Both the position numbers and the translations under genes were made by a program. From Phyllobacterium myrsinacearum (GTDB lineage: Bacteria; Pseudomonadota; Alphaproteobacteria; Rhizobiales; Rhizobiaceae): a DNA stretch of 64,000 bases. Of the stretch, positions 45,059-52,463 are shown piece after piece (position 1 is the stretch's first letter; each line of letters starts with the position of its first letter). Below the pieces are notes generated by a model, which was given only the letters and a program-made list of their open reading frames with translations, made no database searches and was not told where the DNA came from. The stretch covers positions 151,256 to 215,255 of the forward strand of contig NZ_PVBT01000010.1 of assembly GCF_002980555.1 (NCBI RefSeq), given 5' to 3'.

Positions 45059-45159
45059 TGCGTAACGAGCGGTTCTCCTCCCATTTTTTCGCTCGTTACG
45101 TGTTCCCCTCTGGACGCATTTGCGTTCACAATTCGCCGGGCTCCTGCCCGGCATTTTTG
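45059..45159 (+). ncRNA. Candidate small regulatory RNA with anti-Shine-Dalgarno loop
   Basis: An intergenic transcript of about 101 nt is suggested by a promoter, three stems and a terminator. Stem 1 is CGTAACGAGCG (45061-45071) / CGCTCGTTACG (45090-45100), perfect over 11 bp, with an 18-nt loop containing CUCCUCCC. Stem 2 is small, at 45111-45126 (GGACGC / GCGTTC). The terminator stem GCCGGGC (45135-45141) / GCCCGGC (45146-45152), loop UCCU, is followed by ATTTTTG. Between stems 1 and 2 lies a single-stranded UUCCCCUCU. This resembles rhizobial trans-acting sRNAs with anti-Shine-Dalgarno motifs (the alpha-r14 and AbcR/alpha-r15 type). No coding frame fits. The 325-bp gap 44944-45268 holds nothing else. 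Confidence 0.65.
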
Positions 45160-47046: not shown

Positions 47047-48435
47047 TTATTTCGTCAGCACGTCAAGAATGCGTGCCCAGGAACGCTGGCCCTTGTGAAA
47101 GGAACTCAGCTCGTATTTTTCGTTGGGCGAATGGATGCGGTCGTCCTCGAGGCCGAAGCCGACGAGCAGCGATTCCATGCCAAGCATGTTCTGGAAGTCG
47201 CCGACAATCGGGATCGATCCGCCCATGGCGATCAGCACGGCGGGTTTTGGCCATTCGTCGCTCAAGGCCGTCTTGGCCTTGGCCAAAAGCGGCGAGTCAT
47301 AGGACAGCTGGATGGCGGGCGAGCCGCCATGCTCATGGAACTCCACCGAGCAATCGGCAGGGACGCGTTCCCGGACAAAGGCGCGGAAGGCTTCACGGAT
47401 CTTGGCGGGGTTCTGCTTGTGCACGAGGCGGAACGACACTTTGGCCGATGCCTGCGCGGCAATAACGGTCTTGAAGCCCTGCCCGGTATAGCCGCCGATC
47501 ACGCCGTTGATCTCGGCGGTCGGGCGGGCCCAGACCAGTTCCAGGATGGAGCGGCCTTTTTCACCCGAAGGAATGGAAAGACCGATGGGACCGAGAAAGT
47601 TTTCCGGCGTGCAGCCAAGCCCGTTCCAGGTCTGCAGGATCTGCGTCGGGGTTTCCTCGACACCGTCATAGAAGCCGGGAATGGTCACGGCACCGGTTTC
47701 GTCGTGCAGGTCGGCCAGAATCTTCGTGAGAATGTGGATCGGGTTTGCCGCCGCACCGCCGAAGGAACCGGAGTGCAGGTCGCGATCGGCGGCCTTGATG
47801 ACGATTTCCTCGCCGACCAGCCCGCGCAGGCCGACGGAAATCGCCGGGGTCTGCCTGTCCCACATGCCGGTATCGCACACGAGGGCGAAGTCGGCCTTCA
47901 GCTCGTCCTTGCAGGCATCGAGGAAAGGCTTCAGCGATGGCGATCCCGACTCTTCTTCTCCTTCAAACAGGATGGAAATCTTGACCGGCAGCTTGCCATG
48001 CACGTCCTTGTAGGCGCGGCAGGCTTCGACGAAGGTCATCAGCTGGCCCTTGTCATCGGCCGTTCCGCGGCCGGTCAGAATCTTGCGGCCATTGCCCATA
48101 TCCTTGATGGCAGGGGCAAAGGGGTCGTTCTCCCACAGTTCGAGCGGATCAACCGGCTGCACGTCGTAATGGCCATAGAAAAGGACATGGGGTGCATCGG
48201 CACTCGGACCTTCATGATGGGCCACCACCATCGGATGACCCGGCGTGTCGCGCACGCTGGCGTCGAAACCGATGGTTTTCAAATCGGCAACCAGCCATTC
48301 GGCGGCCTTGCGGCATTCGGCCTTGAATGCCGGATCGGTCGAGATGGATTTGATCTTCAACAGTTCGAACAGACGCTCCAGGCTTTTATCGAGATTGGCA
48401 TCAAGGGCATTCAAGACAGGTTCAAGCGCTGACAT
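47047..48435 (-). CDS. M20-family dipeptidase/metallopeptidase
   Basis: Zinc-dependent dipeptidase of the M20 (DUG1/CNDP-like) family, 462 residues. Metal-binding and catalytic blocks are LFYGHYDVQPVDP (His and Asp), GRGTADDKGQ (bridging Asp), EGEEESGSPSL (catalytic Glu pair) and VCDTGMWD. The lid/dimerisation domain lies between about residues 190 and 350. The size and the GRGTADDKGQ block fit cytosolic nonspecific dipeptidases rather than DapE or ArgE. It is followed 15 bases later by rnd on the same strand. The 378-bp region upstream carries a candidate sRNA in the same direction. Confidence 0.9.
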   Translation of the reverse strand: MSALEPVLNALDANLDKSLERLFELLKIKSISTDPAFKAECRKAAEWLVADLKTIGFDASVRDTPGHPMVVAHHEGPSADAPHVLFYGHYDVQPVDPLELWENDPFAPAIKDMGNGRKILTGRGTADDKGQLMTFVEACRAYKDVHGKLPVKISILFEGEEESGSPSLKPFLDACKDELKADFALVCDTGMWDRQTPAISVGLRGLVGEEIVIKAADRDLHSGSFGGAAANPIHILTKILADLHDETGAVTIPGFYDGVEETPTQILQTWNGLGCTPENFLGPIGLSIPSGEKGRSILELVWARPTAEINGVIGGYTGQGFKTVIAAQASAKVSFRLVHKQNPAKIREAFRAFVRERVPADCSVEFHEHGGSPAIQLSYDSPLLAKAKTALSDEWPKPAVLIAMGGSIPIVGDFQNMLGMESLLVGFGLEDDRIHSPNEKYELSSFHKGQRSWARILDVLTK

Positions 48436-48524: not shown

Positions 48525-48675
48525 GAAAAGAAATGGCCGCCGTGGCGGGGGGACCACAGGCGACCAGATCACTACACTCAGATGCGGCGACCCGGAGAGG
48601 GGGGATGAGGCCACCGCAAGTCCGGGGCAGGCGGGGGACGAGCCTGAAATCCCGGACATCGATCTAACGTCGACA
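48525..48675 (-). ncRNA. Candidate small RNA with three C-rich-loop hairpins near polA
   Basis: Reading the minus strand, about 150 nt form three regular hairpins. Stem 1 (48620-48657): GTCCGGG / CCCGGAC with inner CAGGC / GCCTG and loop UCGUCCCCC. Stem 2 (48583-48618): 11 bp with three G-U pairs and loop CAUCCCCCCUCUCC. Stem 3 (48535-48565): GGTCGCC-GTGG / CCAC-GGCGGCC with one bulge and one G-U, loop UCCCCCCG, then the U-rich tail ATTTCTTTTCC. A promoter sits at the right distance upstream. Three C-rich loops in a row are the mark of anti-Shine-Dalgarno sRNAs. From memory, the rhizobial alpha-r7 sRNA (Smr7C, about 150 nt) is encoded next to polA, which is near here. The 378-bp gap 48436-48813 has no credible gene. 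Confidence 0.62.
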
Positions 48676-48681
48676 AGGTGG

Positions 48682-48710
48682 ATTTGGGTCTCAAACCATG
48701 GCAATTCAAG
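48682..48710 (-). promoter_or_regulatory. Predicted promoter of the candidate small RNA at 48675
   Basis: On the minus strand: -35 CTTGAA (48705-48710), exactly 17 bp, -10 CCAAAT (48682-48687). The predicted start is near 48675, 18 bases before hairpin 1. Confidence 0.45.
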
Positions 48711-48813
48711 GGCACGGAACATTACATCTTTGTAACAAACGCGTGATGGGCAGGTGACATGTTCAAGACCCGTCCGATCTGGCATAGAGCGTTCTCGAAC
48801 GGAGGCGAATCCG

Positions 48814-49419
48814 ATGACGAAAGCAGCGATAGAATTGCCGGTCCTGTTCTTTCCGGCAGGCGCCGACTGGGAAGCCTGGCTGGCGGCCAATCACGCGGCA
48901 TCGCCGGGCGTATGGCTCAAATTTTCCAAGAAGACGGCGACCATCAAAAGCCTGTCCAAACAGGATGCGATCGATGGCGCGCTCTGCCACGGCTGGATCG
49001 ACGGCCAGATCGACGCATTCGATGAAGACTACTGGCTCATCCGCTTCACATCGCGCAAGGCCGCAAGCCGCTGGTCCGACATCAATCGCAAGCGCGCCCT
49101 CGAGCTGATCGACCAGGATCGCATGACGCCGGCCGGCCTTGCGGAAATCGAGAAGGCCAAGGCCGACGGACGCTGGGACAAGGCCTATCTTTCGCAAGGC
49201 AAGGCCATGATACCCGCTGATCTGCAGGCGGCCCTCGATGCGAACGCCGAAGCAAAGCAGATGTTCGGGACATTGAGCAGCGTCAACCGCTACGCCATCA
49301 TCTACCGTGTCAACGACGCCAAGAAGCCCGAGACGCGCCTGCAGCGCATTGAAAAATTCGTGGCCATGCTGGCGCGCGGTGAAACCATCCATCCGCAGAA
49401 GGCCAAGCCCTCCCGGTAA
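48814..49419 (+). CDS. YdeI/OmpD-associated family protein
   Basis: Soluble protein of 201 residues of the YdeI (bacteriocin-protection, OmdA) family. Recognisable blocks are WEAWLAANHAASPGVWLKFSKK, DAIDGALCHGWIDGQIDAFDEDYWLIRFTSRKAASRWSDINRKRALELI (in pieces from about residue 45) and IYRVNDAKKPETRLQRIEKFVAMLARGE at the end. The biochemical role is unknown; in some bacteria homologues affect resistance to antimicrobial peptides. ATG 48814 is chosen because GGAGGCG lies six bases upstream; the frame extends further left without a ribosome site. It lies between the candidate sRNA and polA. Confidence 0.8.
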   Translation: MTKAAIELPVLFFPAGADWEAWLAANHAASPGVWLKFSKKTATIKSLSKQDAIDGALCHGWIDGQIDAFDEDYWLIRFTSRKAASRWSDINRKRALELIDQDRMTPAGLAEIEKAKADGRWDKAYLSQGKAMIPADLQAALDANAEAKQMFGTLSSVNRYAIIYRVNDAKKPETRLQRIEKFVAMLARGETIHPQKAKPSR

Positions 49420-49532
49420 GCGGCGGCCGCCCGGCGGATTTGTCAGGAGGAGTCGGCTATCCCGCGATCTTTCGGTGCATGGGAAAGACAGATCATTTCC
49501 TTTTTATGGATGATCATTTAATCGTAGGCACC

Positions 49533-52463
49533 ATGAAAAAAGGTGATCATCTCTTTCTCGTCGACGGCTCCGGCTATATCTTCCGGGCCTATCATGCGCT
49601 GCCGCCCCTCACCCGCAAGTCGGATGGTCTGCCGGTTGGTGCGGTATCGGGTTTCTGCAACATGCTGTGGAAGCTGCTGCGCGAAGCCAGGGACACCTCG
49701 GTCCGGGTGACGCCGACGCATTTCGCCGTCATCTTCGATTATTCGTCGAACACGTTCCGCAAGGAAATCTATCCGGAATACAAGGCAAACCGCTCGGCCC
49801 CGCCGGAGGATCTCATTCCGCAGTTCGGCCTGATCCGCCAGGCCACCAAGGCCTTCAACCTTCCCTGCATCGAAAAGGAAGGCTACGAGGCGGACGATCT
49901 CATCGCCACCTATGCCCGCATGGCGGAAGCCGTGGGCGCGGAAGTCACCATCATCTCCTCCGACAAGGACCTGATGCAGCTCGTCACTCCGCTTGTGTCG
50001 ATGTATGACAGCATGAAGGACAAGCAGATCGGCATTCCCGACGTCATCGAGAAATGGGGTGTGCCGCCGGAAAAGATGATCGACCTGCAGGCCTTGACCG
50101 GCGATTCCACCGACAATGTGCCCGGCATCCCCGGCATCGGCCCGAAGACCGCCGCACAGCTTCTGGAAGAGTTCGGCGATCTCGATACGCTGCTGTCACG
50201 CGCCGGTGAAATCAAGCAGCAGAAACGCCGCGAAAACATCATCGAATTTGCCGAACAGGCGCGCATTTCGCGCCAGCTCGTCACGCTGAAGACCGACACC
50301 CCCGTCGATACCGGGCTTGACGATTTCGGGCTTGAGCCACAGGATGGACCGAAGCTCGTCGCCTTTCTCAAGGCCATGGAGTTCACCTCCCTTACCCGGC
50401 GCGCTGCGGAAGCGACCGGCATCGATGCCGCCGCGATCGAACCATCCGAGGTAGCCGTGGACACGGTTGCCGAGGCACACGGACCGGATGTTGAAATCCC
50501 GGATGGAACTGCTCCCGCTGCCACGGCCGAAAAGCCACAGAACAAACCAGATGGTGGTGTCATGCTGCCCGCCGATCTGGTCAAGGCACGCGCCGACGAA
50601 GCGCTGGCGTCGAAGATCGACACGACGGCCTATACCTGCATCCGCGATCTTGCCACGCTGCAACTGTGGATCGACGAGGCAATGGAAGCCGGACTGGTGG
50701 CGTTCGACACGGAAACGACGTCGCTCGATCCGATGCAGACCGAGCTGGTGGGCTTCTCCCTGGCCATCCGGCCGGGCCATGCCGCCTATGTCCCGCTCAA
50801 CCACAAGTCAGGCAATGGCGATCTCCTCGGCGGCGGCACCGTCGAAGGCCAGATCCCGCTCGACGACGCCTTGCGCGTGTTGAAGCCGCTGCTCGAGAAC
50901 CGTTCGGTGCTCAAGATTGCGCACAACATGAAATATGACTGGCTGGTCATGCACCGCTACGGCATCGATCCGCACCCGTTCGACGATACGATGCTGATCT
51001 CCTACGTGCTTGACGCCGGTGAAGGCACCCATGGCATGGATGCCCTGTCCGAGCGCTGGCTGGGCCATACGCCCATCGCCTACAAGGACGTGGCGGGTAG
51101 TGGTAAGTCATCGGTTACATTCGACATGGTCGATATCGACCGCGCCACCGCCTACGCCGCCGAGGATGCGGATGTGACCCTGCGCCTGTGGCGCCTGCTC
51201 AAGCCGCGTCTGGTCGAGGATGGGCTTGTCTCGGTCTATGAACGGCTGGAGCGCCCGCTTGTCGCGGTACTGGCGCGGATGGAAGAACGTGGTATTTCCG
51301 TCGACCGGCAGATCCTGTCACGGCTTTCCGGCGACCTGGCCCAGGCGGCGGCAGCCATCGAGCATGAAATTTACCAGCTTGCCGGGGAAAAGCTCAACAT
51401 CGGTTCGCCCAAACAGCTGGGCGACATCCTGTTCGGCAAGATGAGCCTTCCCGGCGGCTCAAAGACCAAGACCGGGCAATGGTCGACATCGGCGCAGGTG
51501 CTGGAAGACCTCGCCGCGGAAGGTCATGAACTGCCGCGCAAGATCGTCGACTGGCGCCAGCTGACCAAGCTCAAATCCACCTATACCGACGCCCTGCCCG
51601 GCTATATCCACCCCGATACCAAGCGGGTGCACACGTCCTACGCCATGGCCGCGACCTCCACGGGGCGGCTGTCCTCGTCGGAACCGAACCTGCAGAACAT
51701 TCCCGTGCGCACCAGCGAAGGCCGCAAGATCCGCACAGCCTTCATCGCCGCACCGGGCAACAAGCTGATTTCCGCCGATTACAGCCAGATCGAGTTGCGG
51801 GTCCTGGCGCATGTCGCCGAGATTCCCCAGCTCACCCAGGCTTTTGCCGATGGCATCGACATTCATGCCATGACCGCATCGGAAATGTTCGGCGTTCCGG
51901 TCAAGGACATGCCCTCGGAAGTGCGCCGCCGCGCCAAGGCGATCAATTTCGGCATCATCTACGGCATTTCCGCCTTTGGCCTTGCCAACCAGCTGTCAAT
52001 TCCGCGCGAAGAAGCGAGCCAGTATATCCGCACCTATTTCGAGCGCTTTCCCGGCATCAAGGACTATATGGAGGCGACCAAGGCCTTTGCCCGGCAGAAC
52101 GGTTATGTCGAAACCATCTTCGGGCGGCGGGCGCATTATCCTGAAATCCGCTCGTCCAACCCGCAGGTGCGCGCTTTCAATGAACGTGCATCGATCAATG
52201 CGCCGATCCAGGGTTCGGCCGCCGATATCATCCGCCGCGCCATGGTGCGCATGGAACCGGCGCTCAACGCGGCAAAGCTGTCGGCCCGCATGCTGTTGCA
52301 GGTGCATGACGAGTTGATCTTTGAAACCGCCGACGGCGAAGTCGACGCAACCATTCCGATCATTCGCGACGTCATGGAAAATGCGGCGATGCCGGCAATT
52401 TCGCTGTCCGTGCCGCTGCAGGTGGATGCGCGCGCCGCCAACAACTGGGACGAAGCGCACTAG
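49533..52463 (+). CDS. polA: DNA polymerase I
   Basis: Family A polymerase for repair and Okazaki-fragment maturation, 976 residues. The 5' nuclease domain (about 1-300) starts HLFLVDGSGYIFRAYHALPPL and includes YEADDLIATYA and the H3TH block GIPGIGPKTAAQLL. The 3'-5' exonuclease is intact, with Asp-x-Glu in VAFDTETTSLDP near residue 390. Polymerase motifs are A (DYSQIELRVLAH, about 748), B (RRAKAINFGIIYG, about 798) and C (QVHDELIFE, about 923). A 90-residue variable stretch joins the 5' nuclease to the exonuclease. ATG 49533 starts at the family N-terminus; the frame is open for 31 codons further upstream. Confidence 0.97.
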   Translation: MKKGDHLFLVDGSGYIFRAYHALPPLTRKSDGLPVGAVSGFCNMLWKLLREARDTSVRVTPTHFAVIFDYSSNTFRKEIYPEYKANRSAPPEDLIPQFGLIRQATKAFNLPCIEKEGYEADDLIATYARMAEAVGAEVTIISSDKDLMQLVTPLVSMYDSMKDKQIGIPDVIEKWGVPPEKMIDLQALTGDSTDNVPGIPGIGPKTAAQLLEEFGDLDTLLSRAGEIKQQKRRENIIEFAEQARISRQLVTLKTDTPVDTGLDDFGLEPQDGPKLVAFLKAMEFTSLTRRAAEATGIDAAAIEPSEVAVDTVAEAHGPDVEIPDGTAPAATAEKPQNKPDGGVMLPADLVKARADEALASKIDTTAYTCIRDLATLQLWIDEAMEAGLVAFDTETTSLDPMQTELVGFSLAIRPGHAAYVPLNHKSGNGDLLGGGTVEGQIPLDDALRVLKPLLENRSVLKIAHNMKYDWLVMHRYGIDPHPFDDTMLISYVLDAGEGTHGMDALSERWLGHTPIAYKDVAGSGKSSVTFDMVDIDRATAYAAEDADVTLRLWRLLKPRLVEDGLVSVYERLERPLVAVLARMEERGISVDRQILSRLSGDLAQAAAAIEHEIYQLAGEKLNIGSPKQLGDILFGKMSLPGGSKTKTGQWSTSAQVLEDLAAEGHELPRKIVDWRQLTKLKSTYTDALPGYIHPDTKRVHTSYAMAATSTGRLSSSEPNLQNIPVRTSEGRKIRTAFIAAPGNKLISADYSQIELRVLAHVAEIPQLTQAFADGIDIHAMTASEMFGVPVKDMPSEVRRRAKAINFGIIYGISAFGLANQLSIPREEASQYIRTYFERFPGIKDYMEATKAFARQNGYVETIFGRRAHYPEIRSSNPQVRAFNERASINAPIQGSAADIIRRAMVRMEPALNAAKLSARMLLQVHDELIFETADGEVDATIPIIRDVMENAAMPAISLSVPLQVDARAANNWDEAH

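Follow-up and report, generated by a model that had tools for sequence, protein, structure and literature searches.

The genome of Phyllobacterium myrsinacearum has, in an intergenic gap near polA, a stretch that folds on its minus strand into successive hairpins with C-rich loops. What kind of RNA is encoded there, what would govern its transcription, and on what could it act? The window, that is, the whole stretch of 64,000 nucleotides analysed, had been the subject of an earlier note made from the letters alone, which guessed at a small RNA of the alpha-r7 (ar7) type and proposed a search with cmscan and the Rfam models. The guess was borne out: positions 48531-48675 of the minus strand match RF02342 (ar7) over the full model (1-145 of 145) with 72.8 bits, above the curated cut-off of 60 bits. 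Judged by this match, the Phyllobacterium RNA is of a known kind and belongs to the ar7 family, as does SmrC7/SmelC023 (also named sra03) of Sinorhizobium. What is added here is a test of covariation, the reading of the promoter as RpoH-like and a phased upstream element, of which each Phyllobacterium genome has a single occurrence.

Identity and neighbourhood of the RNA

The genes at the locus are the following:

47047..48435, minus strand: M20 peptidase gene (PF01546), downstream of ar7 and on the same strand
48531..48675, minus strand: ar7 small RNA gene (RF02342, full model, by cmscan), with a predicted start near 48675
48754..49419, plus strand: YdeI/OmdA-like gene between ar7 and polA (PF13376; longest frame, ATG at 48814)
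49440..52463, plus strand: polA, encoding DNA polymerase I (PF00476 and exonuclease domains), the usual neighbour in the family

The window's genome carries a single, divergent ar7 copy, whose 72.8 bits compare with 100-139 bits for the ar7 model in many relatives within the family. A second Rfam small RNA, ar15 (RF02345), which we take to be of the AbcR family, lies about 3.4 kb away at 45060-45156 on the plus strand (55.6 bits; cut-off 40). Smr7C, another name of ar7, has been called widespread in rhizobia (PMC5596092). In those parts of the literature found under ar7 and its synonyms, neither targets nor a function are given.

The RNA shares with ar7 of S. meliloti its position near polA and its set of conserved-loop hairpins followed by a terminator. 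In S. meliloti, the genes flanking smrC7 are polA and SMc02851 (PMC2780559), and SmelC023/SmrC7 is described as lying beside polA, with the A. tumefaciens C58 copy as the exception (PMC3927594). Among 54 loci fetched with the ar7 model, polA lies within 1.5 kb of the RNA in 51. Unlike the usual ar7 locus, that of the window has a gene between the RNA and polA, which the earlier note had described as YdeI-like and which the PF13376 match now supports. Such a gene adjoins ar7 in four of the 54 loci (L001, L037, L038 and L039), all from the window's genus, and is missing from two others of that genus (L035 and L036), so we regard it as a local insertion. The M20 protein is 97% identical to its homologue in Phyllobacterium sp. 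OV277. At most other loci of the genus, ar7 and the M20 gene are close together; L062 (946 to 3501) departs from this, with some 2.5 kb between them.

The three loci with no polA within 1.5 kb (L024, L027 and L033) have, as read from their frames, a transglycosylase-like gene on the upstream side; downstream comes a MarR-like gene, and after it the M20 gene. Since the C58 copy is reported not to adjoin polA, we would guess, without much assurance, that these loci are Agrobacterium-like; contrary to that guess, the named Agrobacterium loci in our set have polA within the locus.

Structure, covariation and distribution

The predicted structural elements, all on the minus strand, are given in the order in which they would be transcribed:

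48658..48674, minus strand: small 5' hairpin, the least conserved (fold; 87.6% of cells paired)
48620..48657, minus strand: hairpin 1, with GUCCCCCGCC in its loop (fold)
48583..48618, minus strand: hairpin 2, with AUCCCCCCUCUCC in its loop (fold)
48534..48566, minus strand: hairpin 3, a probable Rho-independent terminator with the loop CCCCCC (fold)
48525..48533, minus strand: U-rich tail (sequence)

Folding of 48531-48675 returned the three C-loop stems that had been read from the letters (48657-48620, 48618-48583 and 48566-48534), with the U-rich tail after hairpin 3, and added a fourth, small hairpin at the 5' end of the RNA. In the ensemble, CCCCC at 48637-48633, CCCCCC at 48604-48599 and CCCCCC at 48552-48547 are unpaired at 98-100%, while the CCCC at 48627-48624, a fourth such run, is for the most part in pairs. 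The energy z-score is -4.62 for 48525-48675 and -3.35 for 48531-48675, and in neither case did any of 200 shuffles fold as well. When both strands of the whole window were scanned in stretches of 145 nt with a step of 50 nt, only two of 2556 stretches contained more than one hairpin loop with a run of five or more C, and both of these overlap ar7. A simple terminator scan of the intergenic gap gave no match, which we ascribe to a bulged U in hairpin 3.

Covariation of the stems, which had been proposed as a check, is present in all three, and the C-rich loops are conserved. Over 18 sequences, standard pairs occupy 96.0% of 427 cells at 24 pairs, and 12 pairs have changed on both sides (4 of 10 in hairpin 1; 6 of 9 in hairpin 2, where 100% of cells are paired). 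The covariation score is 0.371, against 0.183 in shuffles (none of 500 as high). This comparison is a flattering one, since the aligned sequences are kin to one another and a single one of them supplied the structures; the slid controls, however, reach at most 0.123, which is much lower. Hairpin 3, aligned in 22 sequences, has 98.0% of cells paired, both-sided changes at 10 of its 12 pairs and a score of 0.516, to be read with the same reserve against 0.223 in shuffles. The number of further pair types did not exceed that of shuffles in the 18 sequences (466 of 500 as high), and for hairpin 3 in the 22 sequences 41 of 500 were as high. In a test in which the energies of swapped arms were compared, an arm's own partner was best for 2 of 83 arms of hairpin 1, which makes the test uninformative there, and for 13 of 69 of hairpin 2, which makes it weak; we therefore rely on the pair counts.

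The motif of loop 1, GTCCCCCGCC, and that of loop 2, three to seven C followed by TCTCC, each occur in 54 of the 54 loci found with the ar7 model, a model that itself rewards the letters of these motifs. Both are likewise present across the whole set of 131 loci, 75 of which had been selected by the two motifs and some of which are repeats from the same contig, the distinct 230-nt stretches numbering 119. The terminator loop reads CCUCC in 64 of 71 distinct hairpins and is a run of at least four C in the other seven; the window's copy, with six C, departs in this from most ar7 elsewhere. In sum, the three stems covary whereas the C-rich loops hardly vary.

The linker UGAGUGUA...UGAUCUGG is confined, among the ar7 loci compared, to Phyllobacterium. 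In its form UGAGUGUAGUGAUCUGG (48564-48580, minus strand), it is matched with small changes by 29 of the 131 loci, all from that genus, and is reduced to GATCTG in L067 and L069. The GAUCU of the linker could pair with an AGAUC near the 5' end of the RNA.

The ar7 model matches all 21 Phyllobacterium genomes (17 over the cut-off). In the family as a whole it matches 251 of 297, which represent 94 of 109 genera (209 genomes over the cut-off). In the large searches across the order, whose strict filters lose weak matches, it matched six of 199 genomes, all six from within the family. Of 80 named loci located through the M20 gene, 75 contain the two loop motifs in their expected order; in L067 and L068 an ar7 is present whose loop 1 has a single change, which brings the count to 77, and the RNA was not seen in L106, L116 or L133, the last of which ends at a contig edge. 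Smr7C has been reported as not found in Mesorhizobium huakuii 7653R (PMC5596092); ar7 is present in many of the Mesorhizobium loci examined here. The two-loop pattern matches nine of 10 genomes of the family and three of 239 genomes outside it; the latter are at chance level, since the backward control gives more (seven matches in six genomes). Two of these three, loci from one genus of another family (L231 and L232, near position 1500), show two C-loop hairpins and then a terminator-like hairpin, the latter with a G-rich loop in L231, and may be chance resemblances; neither has the upstream dyad described below, a nearby CTTGA or a polA match.

Promoter and upstream element

Two further features precede the RNA:

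48682..48712, minus strand: RpoH-like promoter CCCTTGAA-N17-CCAAAT (motif search)
48721..48746, minus strand: upstream element TCAC-N6-GTTACNNANNTGTAAT, with its core dyad at 48721-48736 (motif searches)

The earlier note had placed CTTGAA-N17-CCAAAT just upstream, and it is there at 48682-48712 without a mismatch. With up to one mismatch allowed, CCCTTGAA-N17-CCANAT has this single match in the window, against 0.11 expected, and at least one match arose in 11 of 100 shuffles. A simple sigma-70 scan of the intergenic gap found nothing. In its letters, the motif resembles a heat-shock (RpoH) promoter. The RpoH1 consensus of S. meliloti is given as CTTGAA-N15-16-CCTATAT (PMC4843759) and also as CTTGAA-N16-CCTATAT (PMC8844928); measured against it, the window has an exact -35 CTTGAA, a spacer of N16 and a -10 of CCCAAAT, which agrees with CCTATAT at five of seven positions. 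The table of a review lists SmelC023 under both RpoD and RpoH1/2 (PMC7143759). Because even a wider -10 pattern is found in only 83 of the 131 loci, the -10 is evidently less constant than the -35.

About 10 bp upstream of this promoter sits TCAC-N6-GTTACNNANNTGTAAT. A dyad of the form RTTAC-N6-KTAAY precedes CTTGAA in 129 of the 131 loci, the exceptions being L079, which begins too close, and L119, which has no match; TCAC-N6 stands before the dyad in 127 of these 129. The distance from dyad to CTTGAA is 9 bp in 61 loci, 10 bp in 38, 11 bp in three, 19 bp in three, 20 bp in 15 and 21 bp in eight, and is never 12-18 bp (L015, L079 and L119 yield no distance). With repeats removed, the counts in the same order are 59, 28, 3, 3, 15 and 8, with three loci giving none (n = 119). 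When the distance class is followed over a polA tree (117 rows: 99 of the short class, 17 of the long class and one unlabelled), it changes three times, at least two of these changes being backed by strongly supported branches. Thus the spacing appears to have shifted by one full turn of the helix on two or three occasions, a small number of events. Shifts of a full turn suggest a protein bound at the dyad and in contact with the polymerase, and so strictly kept a signal suggests a regulator of ar7's own.

TCAC-N6-GTTACNNANNTGTAA occurs once in each of the 21 Phyllobacterium genomes, and in all 21 it precedes the ar7 match, with about 45-50 bp between its near edge and the match. RTTACNNANNTGTAAY is found once in the window's genome, where the pattern read backward gives four matches. 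As to the kind of protein, site repeats of about 10-11 bp are a general trait of OmpR-type proteins, and the repetition of TCAC, TTAC and GTAA at that interval would suit one of them; the T-N11-A spacing in the element, a spacing quoted for LysR-type sites, would suit a LysR-type protein. ChvI and CenR were considered as owners of the dyad and set aside, as their quoted motifs do not fit; further ChvI motifs are mentioned without letters. Del Val and colleagues noted conserved, unannotated stretches upstream and a predicted UlaR site in the smrC7 promoter (PMC2780559). The upstream conservation itself is therefore not wholly new, and the predicted UlaR site may be the same as our element. The description of ar7 reportedly also mentions conservation over some 80 bp of promoter sequence. 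The element, together with its helical-turn spacing, offers a direct handle on the binding protein and on the timing of ar7 expression.

Proposed function and competing readings

Three groups of small RNAs with C-rich stretches invite comparison. CcsR1-4, the cuckoo RNAs of Rhodobacter sphaeroides, share C-rich loops with the RNA of the window and have an RpoH-type promoter, which the motif upstream of ar7 resembles; they are made from an RpoHI/RpoHII promoter and act on mRNAs (PMC10253847, PMC8307010). They differ in being four RNAs in a row beside a DUF1127 gene, whereas the window has one RNA with three C loops beside M20 and YdeI genes, and as an identity CcsR was rejected (17.6 bits against a cut-off of 65.3; CCUCCUCCC, the motif of the Rfam name, is absent here). 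BjrC80 (RF02354) of the Bradyrhizobiaceae also has three C-rich stretches in succession, and its end resembles a terminator. The window scores 20.8 bits against its cut-off of 80, and the BjrC80 loci L055-L058 have no polA or M20 match; the low score and the other neighbours lead us to keep it apart from ar7 despite the similar layout. At L055 (1500-1665), BjrC80 lies between frames that read as a degP-like and a response-regulator-like gene. PmaR of Agrobacterium tumefaciens, described as confined to Agrobacterium and Rhizobium sp. IRBG74, needs an accessible C-rich loop for target control, mostly activates, and mostly does not act near the ribosome site (PMC6234868); it has one spoon-like hairpin where the window's ar7 has three with C loops.

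On the analogy of CcsR1-4 and PmaR, the C loops are likely pairing sites, and we infer Shine-Dalgarno regions as what they would pair with. The best candidates are ribosome-binding regions, given their richness in G and the CCUCC that most relatives have in the terminator loop; it counts against such pairing that loops 1 and 2 are C runs and not the textbook anti-Shine-Dalgarno CCUCC. We consider it somewhat probable, on balance, that ar7 is a stress-controlled, trans-acting small RNA of this sort. Under stress, RNA polymerase of the RpoH type would begin a separate transcript, about 145-150 nt long, and a protein on the upstream dyad would assist or restrain this start; three hairpins would hold the C-rich loops open, the third presumably also terminating transcription; and the loops would pair with the G-rich ribosome-binding regions of several mRNAs, changing their translation or stability, mostly downward. 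A more far-reaching version, in which a dedicated, helix-phased transcription factor with a 26-bp site once per Phyllobacterium genome joins an RpoH-type core to turn ar7 into a stress-gated brake, its three C loops masking many ribosome-binding sites, is one we put forward with considerable doubt.

In S. meliloti, ar7 starts at 201679/201681 and has a processed end at 201723, with forms of 148-150 and 106 nt, and is about 13-fold more abundant in nodules (PMC2780559), so that the conditions of ar7 expression could, for instance, be studied in this species. Counted on locus L007 and not on the S. meliloti sequence, nucleotide 43 lies within the run of C in loop 1, a hint that loop 1 may be the site of the processing cut. 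When the 21 Phyllobacterium genomes were searched, in front of ATG codons, for strings perfectly complementary to loop 1 or loop 2 over nine bases, no shared target came out; among the complement strings listed, ar7's own complement aside, none occurs in more than five of the 21. Loop 1 complements before an ATG number 120 against 32 for the pattern read backward, from which nothing is drawn because that control ignores the G-rich ribosome sites that precede any ATG. In 11 stretches of the window's genome at complement sites, inspected by eye, five frames of more than 40 residues lie behind a site, none of them remarkable.

Do the structure and its signals belong to a free RNA at all? Hairpin 3 looks like a terminator, and ar7 ends some 95 bp before the M20 gene in the same orientation; both would fit a cis-acting leader or attenuator of the codirectional downstream gene (M20, or the MarR-like gene in some relatives). 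We think this very unlikely, as the downstream genes vary while ar7 stays: eight of 54 loci of about 3 kb have no M20 match, the M20 gene is remote in L062, the MarR-like gene comes next in L024, L027 and L033, and in S. meliloti the RNA is discrete, with its own start (PMC2780559). Nor is it at all probable, although less remote than the leader, that the upstream element works for the promoter of the divergent polA and not for ar7. The frequent nearness of polA (51 of 54 loci) speaks for that reading, as does the loss of TCAC in L027 and L033, two of the three loci without polA. Against it, ar7 retains the dyad even at the loci that lack a nearby polA (L024, L027 and L033) and, despite the intervening YdeI gene, in L001 and L037-L039; moreover, it is to the -35 of ar7 that the distance of the dyad is phased.

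Even as a free RNA, ar7 might not act on mRNA ribosome sites in general: its C loops might have a single G-rich RNA, or an RNA-binding protein, as their partner, ar7 being then a sponge or a scaffold. Loops 1 and 2, nearly invariant in the loci examined, are steadier than many drifting mRNA sites might predict, and the complement searches disclosed no shared mRNA target; on the other hand, loop 3 alternates between CCUCC and C runs, which ribosome-site pairing fits better than one fixed partner does, and we hold the sponge or scaffold to be improbable, if the least so of these three alternatives. It also draws on a repeat nearly complementary to loop 2 in two Phyllobacterium species, which is abundant in only two of the 21 genomes. 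This near-complement, GGAGAGGGGTGATG, accounts for most of the matches listed in the genomes of L038 (G495) and L039 (G343), where the pattern complementary to loop 2 has 39 and 55 matches, respectively, against one to eight in the other 19 Phyllobacterium genomes; GGAGAGGGGTGATG looks like a dispersed repeat.
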